From contig CAMOCI010000009.1 in NCBI GenBank assembly GCA_946610635.1, positions 1-11,465 on the forward strand: a stretch of 11,465 bases of DNA, read 5' to 3'. Source of the stretch: an uncultured Clostridia bacterium. GTDB lineage: Bacteria; Bacillota; Clostridia; Christensenellales; UBA1242. Positions 1,864 through 11,465 of the stretch are shown in pieces. Position 1 is the first letter of the stretch; each line of letters begins with the position of its first letter. The notes beneath the pieces were generated by a model. The model was not told the DNA's origin. It saw nothing but the letters and a program-made list of their open reading frames with translations, and did not search any database. The translations under genes were made by a program, and so were the position numbers.

Positions 1864-3663
1864 ATGTCAGAAGATAAGACAAAACAAACAACAATAAATA
1901 TTTCAGAAAAAGCAAATGTGATTTGGGAAGTGGCAACTCATTTGTCAGGATTATATAAACCACACGAATATGGAAAAGTAATTTTGCCAATGACTGTCAT
2001 CAAAAGATTTAACGATACACTTCTTTCCACGCATGAAAAAGTTTTGGCAATGAACAAACAATGTGATGAAAGAGGGATTCAAGTTAAAGATGGATTTTTG
2101 CAAAAAGCAGCTGGTCACAAATTTTATAACACAAGTGTTTTTACATTAGACAAATTGCTTGATGATGCTGATAACATTGAAGATAATTTCAGAAGTTATC
2201 TCAATGGCTTTTCAGATAATGTTCAAGATATTTTGGAAAACTTTGAATTTGATAAAGAAATAACAAAGATGTCAAAAGGCAATGCGCTTTACATTGTTAT
2301 TCAAGAATTTTGTTCTGAAAAAGCATATATGGGTGCTGACAAAGTTTCTTCTGTTGATATGGGATACGTGTTTGAAGAACTTGTTCGTAAATTCTCTGAA
2401 AGTTATGATGAACAAGCCGGAGCACACTTTACAGCAAGAGATATAATTTATCTTATGACTGATTTGCTTATTGCTGGAGACAAAGAAAGCTTGAAGCAAG
2501 AAGTTGTTACAAAAACAGTTTATGATATGACAATGGGAACATCTCAGATGCTCGGTTGTTTGACAGAACGAATTCAACAAATCAATCCTGATGCCGATGT
2601 CACATGCTTTGGACAAGAGTTTAATCCAGAAACATTTGCTATTGCAAAAGCAGATATGCTCATCAAAGATGGAAATGCCGACAATATGAAGTTTGGTGAC
2701 ACTTTGGTAAAGCAAGAGTTTGCTCCAGAAAATGTTAAAGGTGATCAATTTGAAAATTATGAGTTTGATTACATAATTTCAAATCCACCATTTGGAATTG
2801 ATTGGAAGAAGGAAAAGGATTCTGTAGAAGCTGAAAATCGTCTTGGTGATGCTGGTAGATTTGGTGCTGGACTTCCACCAATTTCTGATGGACAAATGTT
2901 GTTTATGCTTAATGGCGTAAAAAAACTTAAAGATAATGGTCGTATGGCAATCATTCAAAATGGTTCACCACTTTTCAGTGGAGATGCTGGTTCAGGACAA
3001 TCTGACATTCGTGGATTGTTGCTTGAAAATGATTGGCTAGAAGCTATTGTTCAAATGCCAACCGATATGTTTTATAATACCGGTATTTCAACATACATTT
3101 GGCTTGTAACAAAAGAAAAATCGCCAGAAAGAGTTGGTAAAGTTCAACTTATTGATGCAAGCAATATGTTTGAAGCACGCAGAAAATGCCTTGGCAACAA
3201 AAGAAGAGATTTTTCTCAAGAATGCATTGAAAAAATTGTTATGGCTTACAATGAGTTCCAAAACAAATTTTATGATTATGGTGAAAAATCAGTAGAAAGC
3301 AAAATTTTTGATAATGAAGATTTCAAATACACAAAAGTTGTTGTGGAAACTCCACTCAAAGATGAAAAAGGGAATGTTGTGTTAGACAAAAAAGGTCGCA
3401 AACAACCAAACACAGAACTTAGAGATAGTGAAATCATACCTTTCAAACAAGATATTGAAGAGTATATGCAAAAGAATGTTTATCCTTTCAATCCAGATGC
3501 TTATATTGATGAAAGCAAAACAAAAATTGGATATGAAATACCTTTCACAAGACAGTTTTATAAATATATTTCACCAAAAGCTTCTGATGAGATTTTTGCA
3601 GAGATAAAAGAACTAGAAGCCGAAGAAACAAAACTAATGAAGGAGTTGTTTGGAAATGAATAA
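1864..3663 (+). CDS. hsdM: Type I restriction-modification system DNA methyltransferase subunit (HsdM)
   Basis: 599-aa N6-adenine methyltransferase subunit of a type I R-M enzyme. It pairs with HsdS to methylate the recognition site, and with HsdR added forms the restriction complex. The N-terminal HsdM helical domain is recognisable (WEVATHLSGLYKPHEYGK and following, residues about 20-60). VFEELVRKFSE...AGAHFTARDI near 170-195 precedes the SAM-binding motif I, here YDMTMGTSQML at 220-230, in a GTSQM form rather than the more usual GTGGML. The catalytic motif IV NPPF is at 307-310. The C-terminal part (EIIPFKQDIEEYM...PFTRQFYKY) is the tail usual for this HsdM type, and length is normal. The start has a GGGAG site seven bases upstream. 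The stop overlaps the next gene's start region, so translation is likely coupled. Product of the first gene in the operon M-X-S-Y-R. Confidence 0.97.
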   Translation: MSEDKTKQTTINISEKANVIWEVATHLSGLYKPHEYGKVILPMTVIKRFNDTLLSTHEKVLAMNKQCDERGIQVKDGFLQKAAGHKFYNTSVFTLDKLLDDADNIEDNFRSYLNGFSDNVQDILENFEFDKEITKMSKGNALYIVIQEFCSEKAYMGADKVSSVDMGYVFEELVRKFSESYDEQAGAHFTARDIIYLMTDLLIAGDKESLKQEVVTKTVYDMTMGTSQMLGCLTERIQQINPDADVTCFGQEFNPETFAIAKADMLIKDGNADNMKFGDTLVKQEFAPENVKGDQFENYEFDYIISNPPFGIDWKKEKDSVEAENRLGDAGRFGAGLPPISDGQMLFMLNGVKKLKDNGRMAIIQNGSPLFSGDAGSGQSDIRGLLLENDWLEAIVQMPTDMFYNTGISTYIWLVTKEKSPERVGKVQLIDASNMFEARRKCLGNKRRDFSQECIEKIVMAYNEFQNKFYDYGEKSVESKIFDNEDFKYTKVVVETPLKDEKGNVVLDKKGRKQPNTELRDSEIIPFKQDIEEYMQKNVYPFNPDAYIDESKTKIGYEIPFTRQFYKYISPKASDEIFAEIKELEAEETKLMKELFGNE

Positions 3664-4486
3664 TGAAATTGTAGATGAAGTTATTGAACTTTTACAAGAT
3701 AAAGGCTTATATACATCAGTTAAGAGTGTGAACATTATAGGATTTAAAGAACTTTATGAATATGAACAAATCAAGTCATTAGACTTATTTTGTCCAAAAT
3801 GTAATTTGCAAAAAACTTTTGTGTGTTCAAGATATTATACTGATGATTATTTAGGGCGAGAACAGTATCGAAGCAATAATAATGGTATTTGTTATACAAA
3901 TAGAAATTTGCATTTACAATTTGAATGTCCTACTTGTGGAAAGGAAATATGTTATAATTTAGTCTTTCAAAATAACAAAATAATAAAATATGGTCAATAT
4001 CCATCACTAAGAGATTTAAATATTAACGATATAAAAAAATTTAAAACTTTTGGATTAATTAATAAAGAATACATAGAAGAACTAAAAAAAGCTGAAACTT
4101 GTGCAAATGAAAGTTACTATGTGGCTGCATTATTATATTTAAGAAGAGTTTTTGAAAATTTAATTTATAATTTGTATTCTGAGAATAAAAATTCTTTAGA
4201 AATTTCCGAAAAAGATTTTTTTAGTAAGCATTTGGATGAAAAGGTTGAATGTTTGAAAGAATATTTGGCAATTGAAGAAGAATTGTATTCGCATTTGTAT
4301 AAACTTTTGAGTGAGGGGATACATAGTTTATCTGAAGAGGAATGTGAAAAAAAATATCAAATATTAAAAAGTTTATTGCTTGATATTTTAGAAGAACAAG
4401 AACACAAAAAAAAGAAACTAGAAAACCGTAAAGCTATTCATCAACTTATATCACAAAATAATGGTGGTGCTAATGATGAAAAATAG
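3656..4486 (+). CDS. Zinc-ribbon protein with DUF4145/HEPN-like C-terminal domain, embedded in the hsd operon
   Basis: 276 aa, not a standard R-M subunit. I place the start at ATG 3656, which overlaps the hsdM stop and lies 10 bases after AAGGAG (3640-3645). A TTG at 3650, two codons earlier, sits only four bases from that site. The N-terminal half carries two CPxC knuckles, C46/C49 and C91/C94, a probable zinc ribbon of the kind used for nucleic-acid or protein binding. The C-terminal half is helical: ALLYLRRVFENLIYNLY near 160-175, then LYKLLSEGIHSLSEEEC near 215-230. This arrangement resembles DUF4145 proteins, which have a HEPN-like helical bundle. Resemblance is by eye. The tail is a highly charged coiled-coil-like stretch (EEQEHKKKKLENRK). 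Its position between hsdM and hsdS, with overlaps on both sides, argues that it is co-expressed with and serves the R-M complex. Function unknown. Confidence 0.72.
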   Translation: MNNEIVDEVIELLQDKGLYTSVKSVNIIGFKELYEYEQIKSLDLFCPKCNLQKTFVCSRYYTDDYLGREQYRSNNNGICYTNRNLHLQFECPTCGKEICYNLVFQNNKIIKYGQYPSLRDLNINDIKKFKTFGLINKEYIEELKKAETCANESYYVAALLYLRRVFENLIYNLYSENKNSLEISEKDFFSKHLDEKVECLKEYLAIEEELYSHLYKLLSEGIHSLSEEECEKKYQILKSLLLDILEEQEHKKKKLENRKAIHQLISQNNGGANDEK

Positions 4487-5780
4487 TAATGTAGAATGGA
4501 TAGGACAAATACCTGATGATTGGCAAATGATAAAAATTAAAAATATTGCGAATATTATAAACGGTTATTCATTTAAAAGTGAACTATATACTGAACAAGG
4601 AATAAAAGTTGTAAGAATTACAAATGTTTCCGATGGCTATTTAAATAACGATAATCCACGATACTATCCAAGTGAATATAAGGATGATATTAAAGATGCA
4701 ATGTTACAACCTAAAGATATTCTGATTACATTGACTGGTTATATTGGTTTAAGTGGTATTGTAAATGATGATTATTTGCCAGCAGGACTTAATCAGAGAG
4801 TTGGATGTATAAGAATTAATAAAAATGGTTACGATAATAGGTTCTTGCATTATGTTATATCAACAAATCAATTTATAGAGATGTCAAATTTATATTCTAG
4901 TGGAACTGCTCAGCAAAATTTATCAACAGAATGGCTTAAAAATCAATTAGTGCCAGATATTGATATTAAAGAACAAATAAAAATTGCTGATTTGTTAGAC
5001 AAAAAATGTGGACAGATTGATAGACTTATTAAAATTCAACAGCAAGAAATTGAAAAACTAAAAGAATATAAAACTTCTGTGATAACTCAAACAGTCACAA
5101 AAGGTCTTGACCCAAATGTTCCAATGAAAGATAGTGGTATTGAATGGATAGGCCAAATTCCTGCACATTGGAATTTAAATAAACTTAAGTTTGTTTCGTA
5201 TCTTATTACTGATGGTACTCATCAAACACCTAATTACATTGATAATGGTATTCCATTTTTGTCAATTAAGGATATATCTTCAGGAAAAATTGATTTTTCT
5301 GATGTAAAATACATTAGTGAACTTGAGCATAGTGAACTATATAAACATGCACCAATTAACAAAGGAGATATGTTATTCACTAGAATAGGGACGATGGGGG
5401 TATTTGTATTAGTAGATACAGATAAAACCTTTGATATATTTGTTAGTGTTGGATTGATAAAATTTAAGAAGTATATTACACTTATTTTAAAGAAATATCT
5501 GATGTATTTTTTCTCTTCACTTAATTTTCTTGATTTTATTAATCTTGTAAAAGCAGGTGGCGGTACAACAGCAGCGAAATTTAATTTAGAAGATGTAAGA
5601 AATTCTATATTCACTTCACCACCTGAAAAAGAGATGGAAAGTATTGTACAATATATTGATGATTGCAATCAAAGAATAGTAGAAGTAATAACAAAAAAAC
5701 AAAAGAAAATACAAAAATTACAAGAGTATAAAAAGTCTTTGATATATGAATATGTCACAGGCAAAAGGAGAGTTATTTAA
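4476..5780 (+). CDS. hsdS: Type I restriction-modification system specificity subunit (HsdS)
   Basis: 434-aa DNA-recognition subunit; it sets the target sequence for both methylation and cleavage. It has the usual two-fold internal repeat. Each half opens with the same motif (VEWIGQIP at 6-13 and IEWIGQIP at about 222-229), followed by a divergent target recognition domain (about 14-160 and 230-385) and a conserved coiled coil (KEQIKIADLLDKKCGQID... and MESIVQYIDDCNQRI...). The two coiled coils end in the related LKEYKTSVI and LQEYKKSLIYEYVTGK. I choose ATG 4476 because HsdS proteins commonly begin M-K-x-S-x-x-E-W-I-G. ATGs at 4461 and 4473 are in frame but less typical, and the ribosome binding site (GGTGGT at 4463-4468) is weak. 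It overlaps the upstream gene by 11 bases, so translational coupling is likely. Both recognition domains are present, so the gene looks intact. Confidence 0.95.
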   Translation: MKNSNVEWIGQIPDDWQMIKIKNIANIINGYSFKSELYTEQGIKVVRITNVSDGYLNNDNPRYYPSEYKDDIKDAMLQPKDILITLTGYIGLSGIVNDDYLPAGLNQRVGCIRINKNGYDNRFLHYVISTNQFIEMSNLYSSGTAQQNLSTEWLKNQLVPDIDIKEQIKIADLLDKKCGQIDRLIKIQQQEIEKLKEYKTSVITQTVTKGLDPNVPMKDSGIEWIGQIPAHWNLNKLKFVSYLITDGTHQTPNYIDNGIPFLSIKDISSGKIDFSDVKYISELEHSELYKHAPINKGDMLFTRIGTMGVFVLVDTDKTFDIFVSVGLIKFKKYITLILKKYLMYFFSSLNFLDFINLVKAGGGTTAAKFNLEDVRNSIFTSPPEKEMESIVQYIDDCNQRIVEVITKKQKKIQKLQEYKKSLIYEYVTGKRRVI

Positions 5781-6688
5781 TGTTTTGGTATTGGTTTGGT
5801 TTTAGTGCATTTTTAGTTTTAATAATTTCAGGATTCTTTGGATTAAAAATGTTCAATATTAATATGCCTAAATCATTATGTGTCAGATATCTCATTTTTT
5901 CGGCATTTATTGATGCGTTTTATATCTCAATAGTGTATAGTCATTTACTTTGGCAGTTTATTTTTGGTGGTTTATGTTTATTGACTATATTTATGAATTT
6001 AAGTATAAACTTTGTAAATTCAGATAAGAGCCAACCTATTAAAAGATTTGATTTATTATTTGATTTTCTCTGTGGTATAGGATTAACAATTTATTTGTTA
6101 TACATAATTCCTAATGAGGCCTTGCAGTCAATTATGATACCAGTTGTTTCTGCAGTTTATGGTGGTCTGCTCACTTTGATTGGTGTTGCTTGGACAATAA
6201 AAAATCAAGATAAGCAAAGAAAGAATGATGAAAAGCTAAAATTTAAACCGATATTTGTAATTGAAGGTTATAGTAGTGAACAAAATGTTTGGTCAAAATC
6301 TAATACAAGAATGGTACAATTTAATAGTGATCATAAAAAGAAGGAGGATAATAATGAATATTTTACTCTAGATAATATTATTTTATCTAATTCAGATAAT
6401 TCAAATTTATTCATAAAAAATATTTATATAAATAATGAACCTTTAAGTAAGAAATTTGATAAATTTTTAGTTTATAAAGGTGAAATAATCGAAATATTAC
6501 TTAACGGGGATTATAGCTATGATAATATTAATATGACTATTGAAATTACTGATATGTTGGAAAATGAATATCGTTATAATATAATTTATGGCGAAAATAA
6601 GGAATATTTGCGACACAAAAAGAATGAAATTACTGAAATATACTATACAAGATTTATAGAAAAAGTGGAAGAAATAAAAAGAGGTTAA
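5780..6688 (+). CDS. Multi-pass membrane protein of unknown function between hsdS and hsdR
   Basis: 302 aa. The start codon overlaps the hsdS stop (taATG) and follows AAAGGAG at 5764-5770; its stop is one base before the hsdR start, so it is embedded in the operon. The first 140 residues hold about five hydrophobic helices, near 4-22, 37-54, 57-78, 92-110 and 117-139. The last (VVSAVYGGLLTLIGVAWTIK) runs straight into a basic stretch, NQDKQRKNDEKLKFKP. This TM-plus-basic-linker pattern recurs in uncharacterised Bacillota membrane proteins. Residues about 145-302 are soluble, rich in Asn, Ile and Tyr with alternating hydrophobic stretches, probably beta-rich and cytosolic by the positive-inside rule. 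No catalytic motif is visible. A membrane protein is not part of known type I enzymes. A separate defence module or a membrane-acting effector tied to the R-M system are both possible. Function unknown. Confidence 0.72.
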   Translation: MFWYWFGFSAFLVLIISGFFGLKMFNINMPKSLCVRYLIFSAFIDAFYISIVYSHLLWQFIFGGLCLLTIFMNLSINFVNSDKSQPIKRFDLLFDFLCGIGLTIYLLYIIPNEALQSIMIPVVSAVYGGLLTLIGVAWTIKNQDKQRKNDEKLKFKPIFVIEGYSSEQNVWSKSNTRMVQFNSDHKKKEDNNEYFTLDNIILSNSDNSNLFIKNIYINNEPLSKKFDKFLVYKGEIIEILLNGDYSYDNINMTIEITDMLENEYRYNIIYGENKEYLRHKKNEITEIYYTRFIEKVEEIKRG

Positions 6689-6689
6689 T

Positions 6690-9600
6690 ATGGCAATATT
6701 ACAAGATAATGAAAAGAGATTTGAAGAAGATATAGAAGCATTTTTGTTATCTGACAAAGGCGGCTATGAGAAAGGTGATTTGAAAACTTATGACAAGAAA
6801 AAAGCCATTGATATGGACAAGCTTGTCAAGTTTATCTCTGCCACTCAACCAAAAGAATGGAATAGATATCAAAAAATATATCAAGACAAAGCTGAAGACA
6901 ATTTGTATAAGAGATTTCAAGAAAGTGTAAATAATTTTGGATTGCTTTATACTTTGCGACATGGAATTGATGATAGAGGAGTTAGACTTAATCTTGTATA
7001 TTTTATGCCGGGTTCAAATATGAATCCTGAATTGGTTGATTTATATAACAAAAACATATTGACCGAAACAAGACAATTTGCTTATTCTGAAGATAATCAC
7101 AACACAATTGATATGGTTTTGTCTGTAAACGGAATTCCTGTTGTTGCACTTGAACTTAAAAATCAACTTAAAAATCAAACTTATGAAAATGCTGAAATTC
7201 AATGGAAGCAAGATAGAGACCAAAGAGAACTAATTTTCAATTTCAACAAAAGAATTTTGGTTTATTTTGCTGTTGATACTTACTATGTTTCTATGACAAC
7301 AAAACTTGATGGTGACAAGACAAGATTTTTGCCTTTCAATCAAGGTTCAAATGGTGCTGGAAATGTTGGTGGAGCTGGAAATCCTGCAAATGAAGATGGC
7401 TATTGCACATCATATTTATGGGAAAGAGTTTTGCAAAAAGATATGCTTCTTTCAATCTTACAAAAATACTTAAGTTTGCAAGTTGAAGAAATAATTGAAC
7501 TAAAAAACGGTAAAAAAGTTAAAAAAACAAGCAAAAAATTGATATTTCCTAGATATCATCAACTTGATGTTGTTGAAAAGACATTGCAAGATGTTTATGA
7601 ACGTGGCGCTGGAAAGAACTATTTAATTCAACATAGTGCTGGTTCTGGAAAGTCAAACAGTATTGCTTGGCTTACATATCGTTTGGCGTCTTTGCATGAC
7701 AAAAATGATGAGAATATTTTTGATTCTGTTATTGTTGTTACTGACAGAAGAGTGTTGGATAAACAACTTCAAACAACAATTTCAGGATTTGACCATAAGC
7801 TTGGTTTGATTGAAAAAATTGATGATAGCAAATCATCACAAGATTTGAAACAAGCAATAAATGATGGCAAAAAGATTATTATTTCGACTTTGCAAAAATT
7901 CCCTGTCATATATCGTGAAGTTAACGATCAACAAGGAAAAAGATTTGCTATTGTTGTTGATGAAGCACATTCTTCACAATCTGGCAATTCTGCAAAAAAA
8001 TTGAAAATTGCTCTTGCTGACACAACAGAAGCAATAAAAGAGTATAAGGAACTTTATGAAGATGAAGAAATAGATTCTTTTGATATGCTTACAAATGAAA
8101 TTCTTACACAAGGTAAACAAAAGAATTTGTCATTCTTTGGTTTTACCGCAACACCAAAGGCAAAAACACTTGAAATGTTTGGTGAAAGAATGCCAGATGG
8201 AACTTTCAGAGCATTTCATATTTATTCAATGCGACAAGCAATTGAAGAAGGATTTATTCTTGATGTGCTTAAAAACTATACTACAATGGAAAATTGCTTT
8301 AAGATTGCAAATGCAACAAGTGAAAATCCTGAATACAAAGAAACTCCAGCCATAAAAGCAATAAAGAAATATTATGCTAGCCATGAAAAAGTTATTGGTG
8401 ATTATGTTGAAGTTATTGTTGAGCAATTTAGACAAGTCACATTGACAAAAATTGATGGCAAGGCAAAAGCAATGGTTGTTTGTCCATCAAGACCAAGTGC
8501 AGTTAAATTTTATCAAGAAATTAACAAGTATATTCAAGAAAAAGGATATACTGATATGAGAACTTTGATTGCTTTCTCTGGAACGGTTACTATTGGCGAT
8601 AAAGAATACAAAGAAAATCAAATGAACTATACTGCAGATGGAAAGAGAATTTCTGAAGACCAGTTAAAAGCGCATTTTTCAGGTGATGAGTTTAATACTC
8701 TTATAGTTGCTGATAAATATCAGACAGGTTTTGATGAACCATTATTGCATACGATGTTTGTTCTTAAAAAATTAAATAGTGTAAAGGCTGTTCAAACATT
8801 ATCAAGATTAAATAGAACATGTCCGGGCAAAGTTGATACTTTTGTCTTGGATTTTGTAAATACTGCTGAAGATATTCAAAAATCATTTCAACCATTTTAT
8901 GAAGATACGATTTTGTCAGGTGAATTTAATATAAATCTTGTTTATGACAATGCTACAAAAGTAAAACAATACAATTTATTTAATGAAGATGATGTTGAAA
9001 AATTTGCAAAACTTTATTATAAAAAAACTGAACAATCAAATACAGATTTAGGCAAAGTTACAGCTTTATTTAAGCCTGTATGTGATAGGTTTAATGATTT
9101 AACCGAAGAACAAAAAGTTGAGTTTAAAGATGCCTTAAAGAGCTTTAATAGGTTTTATGCATATATTACACAAATCACAAGAACCTTTGATAAAGAGTTG
9201 CACAAAACATATTTGTTTACAGAATATTTAGCAAAGTTATTACCTAGAAGACCTAGCGAAAAAGTTAATTTAGACGATAAAATTCAACTTGAATATACAA
9301 ATATACATCAAACATTTAGTGGAGTTATTGAACTTAAAAAGAGTCCAAATGACAATTCAAATGTTGTTAATCCATCAAAAGATGCTAAGGTGAAATTTAT
9401 TGATGAGAAAAAAGAATTGCTCAATAATATTATCGATAAAATTAACATTATGTTTGAAGGTAAATTTGATGAGAGTGATAGGGTTATTGTAGAAACCATT
9501 TATAATAGATTTGTTGATGGAAAAAACACTAAACTAAAAAAATATGCGAAAAACACAGATAGAGATATGTTTGCAAAAAGCATTTTCCCAAAAGAGTTTG

Positions 9601-9728
9601 ATTCTGTTGCACAAGATTGTTATACAGAACAAATGGATGCTTTTGCTAAATTATTTGAGAATAAAGATTTCTATAACAAGGTTATGGAAGCTATGGGCAA
9701 AGCATTGTATCAAAGTTTAAGAAAATAA
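6690..9728 (+). CDS. hsdR: Type I restriction endonuclease subunit R (HsdR)
   Basis: 1012-aa motor and nuclease subunit of the type I enzyme. Bound to HsdM2-HsdS, it translocates DNA using ATP and cuts far from the site. The N-terminal nuclease domain has a PD-(D/E)xK core: D141 in TIDMVL, then E155 and K157 in ALELKNQ. The SF2 helicase motor follows: Walker A SAGSGKS at 316-322, VVTDRR near 350, DEAH at 424-427, FTATP at 485-489, and motif VI QTLSRLNRT at 702-710. The remaining 300 residues are the helical C-terminal region that docks on the methyltransferase core. Length is normal and every key motif is present, so it looks active. AAAGAGG at 6678-6684 precedes the ATG by five bases. From about position 8690 onward leucine is written mostly TTA, whereas the earlier part favours CTT and TTG. 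That hints at a mosaic gene (see findings). Confidence 0.97.
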   Translation: MAILQDNEKRFEEDIEAFLLSDKGGYEKGDLKTYDKKKAIDMDKLVKFISATQPKEWNRYQKIYQDKAEDNLYKRFQESVNNFGLLYTLRHGIDDRGVRLNLVYFMPGSNMNPELVDLYNKNILTETRQFAYSEDNHNTIDMVLSVNGIPVVALELKNQLKNQTYENAEIQWKQDRDQRELIFNFNKRILVYFAVDTYYVSMTTKLDGDKTRFLPFNQGSNGAGNVGGAGNPANEDGYCTSYLWERVLQKDMLLSILQKYLSLQVEEIIELKNGKKVKKTSKKLIFPRYHQLDVVEKTLQDVYERGAGKNYLIQHSAGSGKSNSIAWLTYRLASLHDKNDENIFDSVIVVTDRRVLDKQLQTTISGFDHKLGLIEKIDDSKSSQDLKQAINDGKKIIISTLQKFPVIYREVNDQQGKRFAIVVDEAHSSQSGNSAKKLKIALADTTEAIKEYKELYEDEEIDSFDMLTNEILTQGKQKNLSFFGFTATPKAKTLEMFGERMPDGTFRAFHIYSMRQAIEEGFILDVLKNYTTMENCFKIANATSENPEYKETPAIKAIKKYYASHEKVIGDYVEVIVEQFRQVTLTKIDGKAKAMVVCPSRPSAVKFYQEINKYIQEKGYTDMRTLIAFSGTVTIGDKEYKENQMNYTADGKRISEDQLKAHFSGDEFNTLIVADKYQTGFDEPLLHTMFVLKKLNSVKAVQTLSRLNRTCPGKVDTFVLDFVNTAEDIQKSFQPFYEDTILSGEFNINLVYDNATKVKQYNLFNEDDVEKFAKLYYKKTEQSNTDLGKVTALFKPVCDRFNDLTEEQKVEFKDALKSFNRFYAYITQITRTFDKELHKTYLFTEYLAKLLPRRPSEKVNLDDKIQLEYTNIHQTFSGVIELKKSPNDNSNVVNPSKDAKVKFIDEKKELLNNIIDKINIMFEGKFDESDRVIVETIYNRFVDGKNTKLKKYAKNTDRDMFAKSIFPKEFDSVAQDCYTEQMDAFAKLFENKDFYNKVMEAMGKALYQSLRK

Positions 9729-9762: not shown

Positions 9763-10185
9763 CTAATTTTTATCTAACAAATCATCAATTGTACAGCCAA
9801 AGTAATTTGCAATTTCAAATAGGGTGCGAATACTTGGTTCAACACCATTCTTGTAGCGAATGATATTGTCTTTCGCATAATGTAAATCGTTGCAAAACTG
9901 TCTGTTTGATATTCCTGCTTTGTTTATCAAATTAGTAAGTATTTCATAAAATTTTTGTTGATTTGTTGAGTATTCATGGAAATGGTTTTCATCGGACAAT
10001 TCATACATATAATCAATGCTAACTCGTAAATAGTTAGCTATTTTTATTAGCGTTTGCAAACTTGGATTTCTTTGTTTGTATTTGTAAAATGTATCCCTTG
10101 AAATTATTTGATTATTAAACAAATCTTCAGTAGTTTTTCCTTGTTCTTCTAATATATTTTTAACAACTGTTATAAAATCTTTCAT
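9763..10185 (-). CDS. XRE-family transcriptional regulator with two tandem HTH domains
   Basis: 140 aa, made almost entirely of two helix-turn-helix units joined by a short linker. Unit 1 spans about 4-63 (SRDTFYKYKQRNPSLQTLIKIANYLRVSIDYM); unit 2 about 77-138 (YAKDNIIRYKNGVEPSIRTLFEIANYFGCTIDDLL). The two second halves align (YK-nn-PS-TL-IANY-SID), so an internal duplication is likely. Such a protein could bind an asymmetric site as a single chain. The start is ATG 10183-10185, six bases after GGAG (10192-10195); a TTG four codons upstream is less likely. It is divergent from the SLOG gene. The two direct repeats between them fall in both promoters, which suggests that it represses itself and its neighbour. 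It contains no effector or protease domain. Confidence 0.88.
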   Translation of the reverse strand: MKDFITVVKNILEEQGKTTEDLFNNQIISRDTFYKYKQRNPSLQTLIKIANYLRVSIDYMYELSDENHFHEYSTNQQKFYEILTNLINKAGISNRQFCNDLHYAKDNIIRYKNGVEPSIRTLFEIANYFGCTIDDLLDKN

Positions 10186-10204
10186 CTCAAACTCCAATTA
10201 TTAC

Positions 10205-10233
10205 GATATAATTATTGCCTAAAATGATGACAA
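10205..10233 (-). promoter_or_regulatory. Promoter of the XRE regulator gene
   Basis: Read on the minus strand, TTGTCA (10228-10233; 5 of 6 to the -35 consensus) and TATATC (10205-10210; 4 of 6 to the -10) are 17 bp apart. Transcription would start near 10198, giving a leader of about 13 bases that still contains the GGAG site at 10192-10195. The upstream copy of the 17-bp direct repeat covers most of the spacer and -35. Confidence 0.5.
10216..10232 (+). promoter_or_regulatory. Putative operator, direct repeat copy 1
   Basis: TGCCTAAAATGATGACA matches the copy at 10246-10262 at 15 of 17 positions; the two mismatches are the central AA versus TT. The copies lie 30 bp apart, about three helical turns, in the same orientation. 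This copy overlaps the spacer and -35 of the XRE gene promoter. The ends show weak symmetry (TGCC against GACA), as expected for a two-HTH protein. Binding by the neighbouring XRE protein is inferred. Confidence 0.6.
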
Positions 10234-10238
10234 AATAC

Positions 10239-10268
10239 TTGCTACTGCCTATTATGATGACATATAAT
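10239..10268 (+). promoter_or_regulatory. Promoter of the DUF1273/SLOG gene
   Basis: A perfect TATAAT at 10263-10268 is preceded, with an 18-bp spacer, by TTGCTA at 10239-10244 (4 of 6). The predicted start site is about 10275, the A of the proposed ATG, so the mRNA may be leaderless. The second direct repeat (10246-10262) exactly fills the spacer between these two elements, so a bound protein would block polymerase. Confidence 0.5.
10246..10262 (+). promoter_or_regulatory. Putative operator, direct repeat copy 2
   Basis: TGCCTATTATGATGACA is the partner of the repeat at 10216-10232. It sits between the -35 and -10 of the SLOG promoter. Having one copy per divergent promoter suggests that a single regulator controls both genes. 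Confidence 0.6.
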
Positions 10269-10274
10269 AATTAT

Positions 10275-10781
10275 ATGAAATCAATAAAGCAATTAACATT
10301 ATGTTTTACTGGCCATAGGCCACAAAAACTTCCATGGGGATTTAATGAACAAGATGAAAGGTGTTTGAAAGTAAAAGAAAAATTAAAAATATTGATTGAG
10401 CAAGCAATTATTGATGGATATAGTTATTTTTGGTCGGGAATGGCTCTTGGCTTTGATATGATGTGTGTTGAAATATTGTTAGAATTAAAAGTTAAGTATA
10501 AACGAATAAAAATTTATGGTGCTTTGCCATGTAGAAATCAAAGCCAAAAATGGCCGATAGAACAACAAAAGAGGTATGATAAGTTAATTAATCAACTTGA
10601 TGGTATTCGTTGTTTAAATGATAATTATACTGGTTTAGAATGTATGCTTGAACGCAATAGATTTATGATTGATAACTCATCAAAGCTAATTGCATTGTTT
10701 AATAGCAAAAGTGGTGGAACCAAATCAACAATTGAATATGCTAAAAAGAAAGAATTAGAAATAATTATACTTGAACCATAA
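10275..10781 (+). CDS. DUF1273 / SLOG-superfamily protein
   Basis: 168 aa, a compact Rossmann-like protein of the SLOG (Smf/DprA-LOG) superfamily, DUF1273/YpsA-like branch. Visible features are the N-terminal CFTGHRPQKLPWG (10-22), the WSGMALGFDMMCVEILLEL segment (53-71) and the C-terminal SGGT (146-149) followed by KSTIEYAKKK. Together these form the nucleotide or nucleotide-sugar binding pocket of the family. Superfamily members act as ligand sensors or enzymes in several defence systems, and DUF1273 genes are frequent on mobile elements; this protein's ligand and activity are unknown. I start at ATG 10275, where family similarity begins. Upstream in-frame TTG (10215) and ATGs (10224, 10227, 10254, 10257) would translate the operator repeats and have no ribosome binding site. 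No Shine-Dalgarno precedes 10275 either, consistent with a leaderless transcript. No effector domain is fused. Confidence 0.86.
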   Translation: MKSIKQLTLCFTGHRPQKLPWGFNEQDERCLKVKEKLKILIEQAIIDGYSYFWSGMALGFDMMCVEILLELKVKYKRIKIYGALPCRNQSQKWPIEQQKRYDKLINQLDGIRCLNDNYTGLECMLERNRFMIDNSSKLIALFNSKSGGTKSTIEYAKKKELEIIILEP

Positions 10782-10894
10782 TTGTTAAAAGATAGAATAT
10801 TATGTCTCTTTTTGATGAAAAATGGATAGTAAAAAATTTTTTAAAACTTTTTTTGTTAAAAATGGCAAAAACAGGTGTCCAAATCAAAAAAATA

Positions 10895-10918
10895 TGTCCT
10901 TAATAATATGGAGGAAAT
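10895..10918 (+). repeat. Repeat core, copy a
   Basis: Core with TGTCCTTAATAATATGG then AGGAAAT. It is preceded by TCCA at 10878-10881, which can pair with TGGA at 10909-10912 across 27 bases. Confidence 0.75.
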
Positions 10919-10979
10919 AAAAAAAATTTAATAAATTTTTGTAATTTTGCAAAAAACCCACGATATTTTTTTAAATACT

Positions 10980-11004
10980 TGTCCTTAATAATATGGGAGG
11001 AAAT
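10980..11004 (+). repeat. Repeat core, copy b
   Basis: Core identical to copy a except for one extra G (TATGGGAGG). CCCA at 10957-10960 can pair with TGGG at 10994-10997 across 33 bases; the extra G is matched by a C. Confidence 0.75.
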
Positions 11005-11076
11005 ATAAATATTAAAAAAATTTTTTTACAAATTTTGAAAAAATGCTTAAAATATACCCCACGATTTGGAAAAACT

Positions 11077-11100
11077 TGTACTTAATAAAGTGGAAGGGAT
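11077..11100 (+). repeat. Repeat core, copy c
   Basis: Diverged core TGTACTTAATAAAGTGG then AAGGGAT. CCAC at 11059-11062 can pair with GTGG at 11090-11093 across 27 bases. Confidence 0.7.
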
Positions 11101-11226
11101 ATTAAAATTGAGAACATGAAAAAAATGTAGAGCTTGTTAAAGTGTGTCGAAATATAGCATAACAAAAAAATTTTTAAAATTATTTATTTAAAAAGACCAA
11201 AAATACCCGCCCAATTTCAAAATACT

Positions 11227-11250
11227 TGTCCTTAATATTATGGAAGGGTA
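11227..11250 (+). repeat. Repeat core, copy d
   Basis: Core TGTCCTTAATATTATGG then AAGGGTA. CCTTAATATTATGG is itself a near-palindrome (12 of 14). CCA at 11211-11213 can pair with TGG at 11241-11243 across 27 bases. Confidence 0.75.
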
Positions 11251-11257
11251 CAAAGTA

Positions 11258-11329
11258 ATGATGGTAAAAAAATGTTCAAAAATATGGTCTAATAAAATTT
11301 TTTTAATGAATTTTTATGAAAAGAGGTAA
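11258..11329 (+). other. Possible 23-codon ORF following repeat copy d
   Basis: The GGAAGGG of copy d (11242-11248) is nine bases before ATG 11258, which opens a 23-codon frame (MMVKKCSKIW...NFYEKR) ending in TAA. It runs across the 39-bp spacer into copy e. It is lysine-rich with no recognisable family. In DNA this AT-rich a chance frame is quite possible; it is listed because the spacing from a strong ribosome binding site is good. Confidence 0.2.
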
Positions 11330-11355
11330 AATTCCATTGTTAAATTAAAAATACT

Positions 11356-11379
11356 TGTCCATATATTAGTGGAGAGACA
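11356..11379 (+). repeat. Repeat core, copy e
   Basis: Most diverged core: TGTCCATATATTAGTGG then AGAGACA. TCCA at 11333-11336 can pair with TGGA at 11370-11373 across 33 bases, the same spacing as copy b. Confidence 0.65.
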
Positions 11380-11382
11380 ATA

Positions 11383-11436
11383 ATGACTTACTTAACAACA
11401 GCTAAAAAGGTATTTCAATTGAAATATCATTTTTAG
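11383..11436 (+). other. Possible short or frameshifted ORF after repeat copy e
   Basis: ATG 11383 lies six bases after GGAGAG (11371-11376) and opens 17 codons (MTYLTTAKKVFQLKYHF) to a TAG. In the next frame, from about 11406, the reading stays open to the window end (GISIEISFLVAKYLKIEYE). A single-base slip in the five-A run at 11404-11408 would join them into an N-terminus vaguely like a small HTH protein. It could be a short peptide, a broken gene or chance. Confidence 0.2.
11402..11436. repeat. Strong inverted repeat / hairpin
   Basis: TATTTCAATTGAAATA at 11411-11426 is a perfect 16-bp palindrome. It is flanked by CTAAAAA (11402-11408) and TTTTTAG (11430-11436), which also pair, separated by a small internal bulge (GG opposite TCA). 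It could act as an operator, cruciform or weak terminator. It has no GC-rich stem, so it is not a standard rho-independent terminator. Confidence 0.7.
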
Positions 11437-11465
11437 TTGCTAAATATTTGAAAATTGAATATGAA

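Follow-up and report, generated by a model that had tools for sequence, protein, structure and literature searches.

An array of five direct repeats lies near the end of the 11,465-base stretch analyzed here (the window), which is one whole contig (CAMOCI010000009.1) of a 762 kb assembly (134 contigs, ~71% complete) of an uncultured Clostridia bacterium. In relatives, the order of features is variable cargo, array, hairpins, a gene for a 76-aa protein, a MOBL relaxase, Xis and integrase, and we tentatively interpret the array, at close to an even chance, as one half, made of tandem protein-binding units, of an extended origin of transfer (oriT) in integrative mobilizable elements. The array occupies positions 10832-11379, leaving 86 bases to the contig end; because the contig stops at 11465, before any transfer gene, the assignment of the window itself is by homology only.

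The five copies reported in an earlier note on this DNA are real: a unit profile derived from 54 repeats in other genomes, with the window's own excluded, scored all of them (E 6e-14 to 1e-4), the best score among 200 dinucleotide-preserving shuffles of the array region being 9.1 bits. The near-constant unit length claimed in the same note, about 86 bp, likewise held. A 21-nt core pattern, allowing 3 mismatches at most, yielded 4 matches in the window against 0.00 expected and missed unit 5, which is clearly degenerate. The core-to-core distances are 85, 97 and 150 bp, followed by about 130 bp to the fifth core. The units and one spacer are laid out as follows.

10832-10917, plus strand: repeat unit 1 (45.3 bits), core ATGTCCTTAATAATATGGAGG at 10894-10914
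10918-11003, plus strand: repeat unit 2 (27.3 bits), core at 10979-10999 with 0 mismatches to the core pattern
11014-11101, plus strand: repeat unit 3 (41.9 bits), core at 11076-11096
11102-11163, plus strand: inter-unit spacer, no blastn match outside the window
11164-11250, plus strand: repeat unit 4 (45.7 bits), core at 11226-11246
11293-11379, plus strand: repeat unit 5, degenerate (16.2 bits, E 1e-4), core at about 11355-11375

Units can be aligned position by position across elements, each comprising a block of A/T tracts, a variable block whose end is often ACGATTT, and a core of the form TGT(AG, CC or AC)TTAATAATATAGAGGG. The conserved core is TGTNN-TTA-AT-rich-TAGAGGG (TGTNNTTA...TAGAGGG), and eight columns are invariant across 34 aligned units. 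Core-to-core distances shorter than 100 bases are 83-88 in 36 of 40 cases, the rest being 75, 76, 76 and 97 (the last in the window), and longer distances occur where degenerate units stand between cores. In 33 regions for which the core or mobC set the orientation, every one of the 92 units scoring 9.2 bits or more, the window's five among them, was on the plus strand, a single orientation that points to the transfer module. Among 66 cores from 23 loci, which are not independent of one another, the two bases following TGT were AG (40), CC (21) or AC (5), never CG, and the base preceding TGT was never C; in a few units viewed by eye, the upstream block may pair with TGT.

The downstream side is readable in 23 array loci, 20 of which lead into a module of mobC and auxiliary-relaxase genes. 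The exceptions are L081 and L084, where the array immediately precedes xis-int and no relaxase is present there, and L089, where it adjoins unrelated sequence. The window, L079, L085 and L090 end before this side, L076 and L078 end within the hairpins, and L082 ends inside a small gene. The relaxase of L039 belongs to the MOBL family (PF18555, 5.2e-23), and its relatives at 89-96% identity are encoded downstream of arrays; more distant plasmid relatives (25-28% identity) carry the name MobP2. The Xis-like small gene, with a weak HTH_17 match, is followed by a tyrosine integrase, so that the recombinase that the earlier note proposed to look for beyond the array was found in relatives, the window's own contig stopping short of it. 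The 76-aa protein has a predicted fold (mean pLDDT 77.6) for which ribbon-helix-helix proteins are the best, albeit weak, match, and no meaningful sequence match among solved structures; by eye, the auxiliary genes of L169 and L082 also have a ribbon-helix-helix look. No mating-pore gene was recognized among the annotated proteins.

Between the array and mobC, each element carries one to six hairpins (for example, L165:3777-4125 and L039:3007-3180), whose arms differ yet stay complementary, with the loop and outer pairs nearly constant. In 27 distinct 25-nt hairpins, 249 of 270 stem pairs are kept, and at the seven positions left free in the search pattern 170 of 189 pairs are kept, with several pair types. 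Under a strict test, the hairpin was present between array and mobC in 14 of the 17 array-bearing relaxase/mobC loci; that of L163 differs in sequence, and imperfect hairpins occur in L071 (two, each with one mismatch), L073 (a single one with one mismatch) and L138 (a single one with two mismatches). The array-less loci L154-L162 and L167 had none (0/10). No hairpin of this covarying type was found in the window. A terminator-like hairpin lies after the last unit in 18 of the 33 regions; among the 17 array-bearing relaxase/mobC loci the count is 16. A pattern search placed one before the array in 12 of the 33 regions, and that of L039, which spanned the region edge, was found separately.

Relaxase/mobC loci were scored for the array and are grouped here by identity to the L039 relaxase, the counts covering relaxase matches assigned to a locus, with L074, L088 and L091, which are cut before or within the relaxase, placed in the main clade by mobC. 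The array is present in 11/11 main-clade loci, with 3 to 7 units per array scoring 9.2 bits or more, and in 5/5 loci of the 66-68% relaxase clade; L163 (relaxase 46%) has a divergent array and L169 (39%) a single unit. It is absent from 9/9 loci at 49-61%, with the exception of a 13.2-bit match in L154, some 2 kb away from mobC, and from L167 (42%) and L168 (36%), which are the two MOBL relaxases of the window's own assembly; weak unit-model matches of 7-14 bits near array-less relaxases were left uncounted, and a degenerate unit may be present there. Core type tracks relaxase clade in the 16 elements where both are readable: type I cores occur in 11/11 main-clade elements, without type II, and type II cores in 5/5 elements of the 66-68% clade, without type I. 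Seven of the 11 main-clade elements contain a third core variant as well. L076 and L078, in which the relaxase is unread, do not fit the core types cleanly.

The array goes with the transfer module and not with the integration module, since the Xis and integrase of array-less L154 are 92% and 79% identical, respectively, to those of array-bearing L081. A link of the array to Xis/Int was rejected because in 8 of the 9 array-less loci L154-L162, Xis is 78-96% identical to that of array-bearing elements (31% in L155).

The closest model is the oriT of pLS20, the MOBL prototype plasmid of Bacillus subtilis, which is described (PMC5313138, PMC5675868) as a 362 bp region with short repeats (TGTGCAT three times), where two ribbon-helix-helix proteins bind the half that contains the direct repeats and a static bend, and nic lies at an inverted repeat that is followed by the auxiliary and relaxase genes. 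The shared features are one-sided direct repeats, auxiliary genes and a MOBL relaxase, in the same order; a predicted bend in the array and the hairpins beyond it may be the counterparts of the intrinsic bend and of the inverted repeat at nic. Because the order is the same, the array would by analogy be an elongated form of the auxiliary part of the origin, and the hairpins would be the relaxase side. The differences from that description are that the elements considered here have 3-7 scored units of about 86 bp, spanning up to about 0.9 kb, as well as several hairpins with different arms, and an integrase and cargo. Of the features of a pLS20-type origin, direct repeats are present in the window, covarying hairpins lie 3' of the array in relatives, and a downstream MOBL relaxase is likewise seen in relatives, the window's contig ending too early.

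In the mechanism that we propose, the core of each unit would be the binding site of an auxiliary protein of the relaxosome, either the 76-aa protein or a partner of it, and the A/T tracts of the units would bend the DNA. The bound, bent array might then load the relaxase at the neighboring hairpins; a nick made there would initiate transfer, the array and cargo going ahead. If nicking is as in pLS20, on the template strand of the transfer genes, array and cargo would be the first parts to reach the recipient. Extra units might add binding capacity, and units could be lost or gained by recombination; gain and loss were judged from parts of the alignment, core distances and unit counts. Curvature was predicted from wedge values: in 120-base windows, the mean was as high in 3 of 100 shuffles for the window and in 0-8 of 100 over eight arrays, and the maximum in the window was ordinary (32 of 100 shuffles), such that predicted curvature supports a bend only modestly.

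A rather unlikely alternative is that the array is a regulatory region of the transfer/integrase operon or of the cargo, in which the units would be promoters or operators and the core would resemble a -10 element. The core does contain a TATAAT-like sequence, the core of the single unit in L169 ends about 60 bp 5' of the auxiliary-relaxase gene pair, in L081 and L084 the array sits directly 5' of xis-int, and promoter-like matches on the minus strand, directed towards the cargo, fall repeatedly at cores (6 of 11 in L039, at three cores; 5 of 12 in L137, at two cores). However, sigma-70-like matches are not enriched over shuffles (8 versus 5.3±2.2, 11 versus 8.7±2.8, 5 versus 4.3±2.2, and 12 versus 9.5±3.2), a plus-strand match coincides with a core only once (unit 5 of the window), closely similar xis-int modules occur without the array, and in 16 of 17 loci a terminator-like hairpin separates the array from the transfer genes. 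It is highly improbable that the units are repeated small RNAs or form a type III-like RNA antitoxin array, a reading for which the terminator-like hairpins flanking one or both sides of the array in many relatives would speak: RNAalifold gave no consensus pair in the 34 aligned units, eight units folded as single-strand DNA had stabilities like those of shuffles (z -1.02 to 0.09), and the only two Rfam matches up to E 1 were outside the array and below gathering scores. The small-RNA possibility raised in the earlier note thus found no support in conserved RNA or single-strand structure, and neither did a single-strand promoter.

An AT-rich tandem array with a regular pitch and modest predicted curvature could also serve partition or replication, as a centromere or an iteron array, if the element is able to replicate in its excised state as well. 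This is very unlikely, given that iterons are usually about 20 bp apart and that no Rep or Par gene was found among the annotated proteins or in open reading frame (ORF) lists inspected by eye (L073, L075, L137, L138 and L165), in which many ORFs are unannotated. Barely credible is an array of cassettes or recombination sites with exchangeable inserts, as the earlier note had considered from the variable spacing in the window, even with a tyrosine integrase downstream in relatives. Of the two inter-unit segments in L039, the first is found again over nearly its whole length in 10 other loci (79-92% identity) and the second in 11 (82-96% identity), an outcome that speaks against cassette exchange by the criterion that the earlier note itself had set. 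This is not a cassette array because such inter-unit "spacers" are conserved between elements whose units align positionally. The distances between recognized cores within arrays, at most 429 bp when two wider values leading to stray upstream matches are left out, are also too short for most genes. Direct repeats at variable distances are shared with integron cassette arrays; exchangeable gene cassettes are lacking, and the inter-unit segments are conserved. As for the window's own spacers (62 and 42 nt), no convincing relatives were found among the loci examined, the second giving two partial matches (E 0.006). What stands of the earlier proposal is a cis-acting site in a mobile-element setting, with recombinase and transfer genes just beyond the array in relatives.

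The transfer-origin reading could be extended, in a quite unlikely version, to a copy-number-variable array acting as a stand-alone mobilization tag, through which defense islands that keep the array but have no relaxase beside them (L081, L084 and possibly the window) would be mobilized in trans by co-resident MOBL relaxosome proteins, array and cargo entering first. L081 and L084 are candidate trans-mobilized elements. If the transfer-origin reading is right, the array would be a sequence tag for mobile elements that move restriction-modification, DISARM and other defense cargo, with uncultured Clostridia of the Christensenella kind as hosts; it would represent a MOBL transfer origin built of long tandem units, whose repeat number could be related to transfer, and would suggest a travel route for islands that lack a relaxase.

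The host assembly, searched with the core pattern at up to 2 mismatches, contained the array and one two-mismatch match, and the reversed control pattern likewise gave one, which argues against the dispersed genome-wide repeat that the earlier note had allowed for; no array of this kind other than the window's was found in this ~71% complete assembly. A search of 60 relatives gave matches in the window's genome and in one further genome, the latter with a single match, and the second array (L011/L039), from another genus, was reached via a search with the SLOG protein. With a refined core pattern (up to 1 mismatch), 24 of the 309 family genomes searched gave matches, and 21 of these were kept, including the window's; the matches in G184, G014 and G201 were dismissed as chance because they were isolated, at most part of the core scored, and two were inside reading frames. 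The reversed control matched 12 family genomes, never more than once per genome. Among 396 genomes of the order, 12 matched, 5 within the family and 7 outside, those 7 by single one-mismatch matches. The 12 named loci with a close relaxase come from assemblies labeled uncultured Christensenella sp., Clostridia bacterium or Eubacteriales bacterium. No array match was found in phages, and no viral contig had the window core pattern or one core pattern of the relatives; a single viral match (11.6 bits) was discarded as chance, as it covered only the core part of the unit model in a stretch that looks coding by eye. Among the titles and abstract beginnings listed by literature searches on transfer origins, relaxases, direct repeats, mobilizable elements and Christensenella, none describes such an array.

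The genes 5' of the array vary between elements. In the subset for which cargo was annotated, type I restriction systems are carried by the window and L074, as well as by L073, L086 and L077 (24-36% similarity to the window's Hsd proteins), and other restriction cargo is of type IIG (L085, L088), BpuSI-like (L091), AlwI-like (L137) or type III (L165). Further defense cargo comprises DISARM DrmA/DrmB (L079), Hhe/PDC-S37 (L070, L074) and an Orf5/HEC-06-like protein (L080); L078 carries non-defense cargo, a radical SAM gene. Relatives of the SLOG gene adjoin the arrays of L039, L075 and L137. The firmicute integrative and mobilizable elements reviewed in PMC5704250 similarly combine integrase, Xis, relaxase and cargo, from which the present elements differ in the MOBL relaxase, the long repeat array and the frequent restriction or defense cargo. 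In the window, the array directly follows a SLOG gene beside a defense operon, an observation of the earlier note that the domain matches bear out. The remaining features of the window are as follows.

Start of the window: AAA ATPase gene, truncated by the contig start
1864-9728, plus strand: type I restriction-modification operon on the cargo side (Pfam, PADLOC)
1864-3663, 4461-5780 and 6690-9728, plus strand: HsdM, HsdS and HsdR, respectively, within this operon
3650-4486 and 5780-6688, plus strand: two genes in the operon, neither with a Pfam or PADLOC match
9763-10197, minus strand: regulator containing two helix-turn-helix stretches of the Cro/CI type, in divergent orientation to the SLOG gene
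10215-10781, plus strand: SLOG-family gene (YpsA, PF06908; Pfam 2.9e-26), immediately 5' of the array, the ATG at 10275 being the likely start as judged by eye
11399-11439: imperfect 41-nt palindrome 3' of the array near the contig end (opposite-strand self-match, 86%), which could be a real hairpin or an assembly fold-back

The transfer module has several smaller features. Just 5' of mobC, at L039:3191-3211 and in relatives, a strong ribosome-binding-like sequence, AAAGGAGGTG, precedes a start codon with an immediate stop (ATGTAA), and small reading frames that look sigma-factor-like by eye are located upstream of the transfer genes at L169:3701-3955 and 5' of mobC in L103. Integrase genes in many elements end in GATTTTGARATGT(A/G)(A/G) (for example, L165:7433-7447 and L075:13751-13765), and the sequence after the stop varies among elements, as though the gene end and an attachment core overlapped; similar ends are seen in some relaxase genes. 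In L165, a 17-nt attachment-site-like repeat is shared by the mobC leader and the integrase end, and it is shorter in most other elements.
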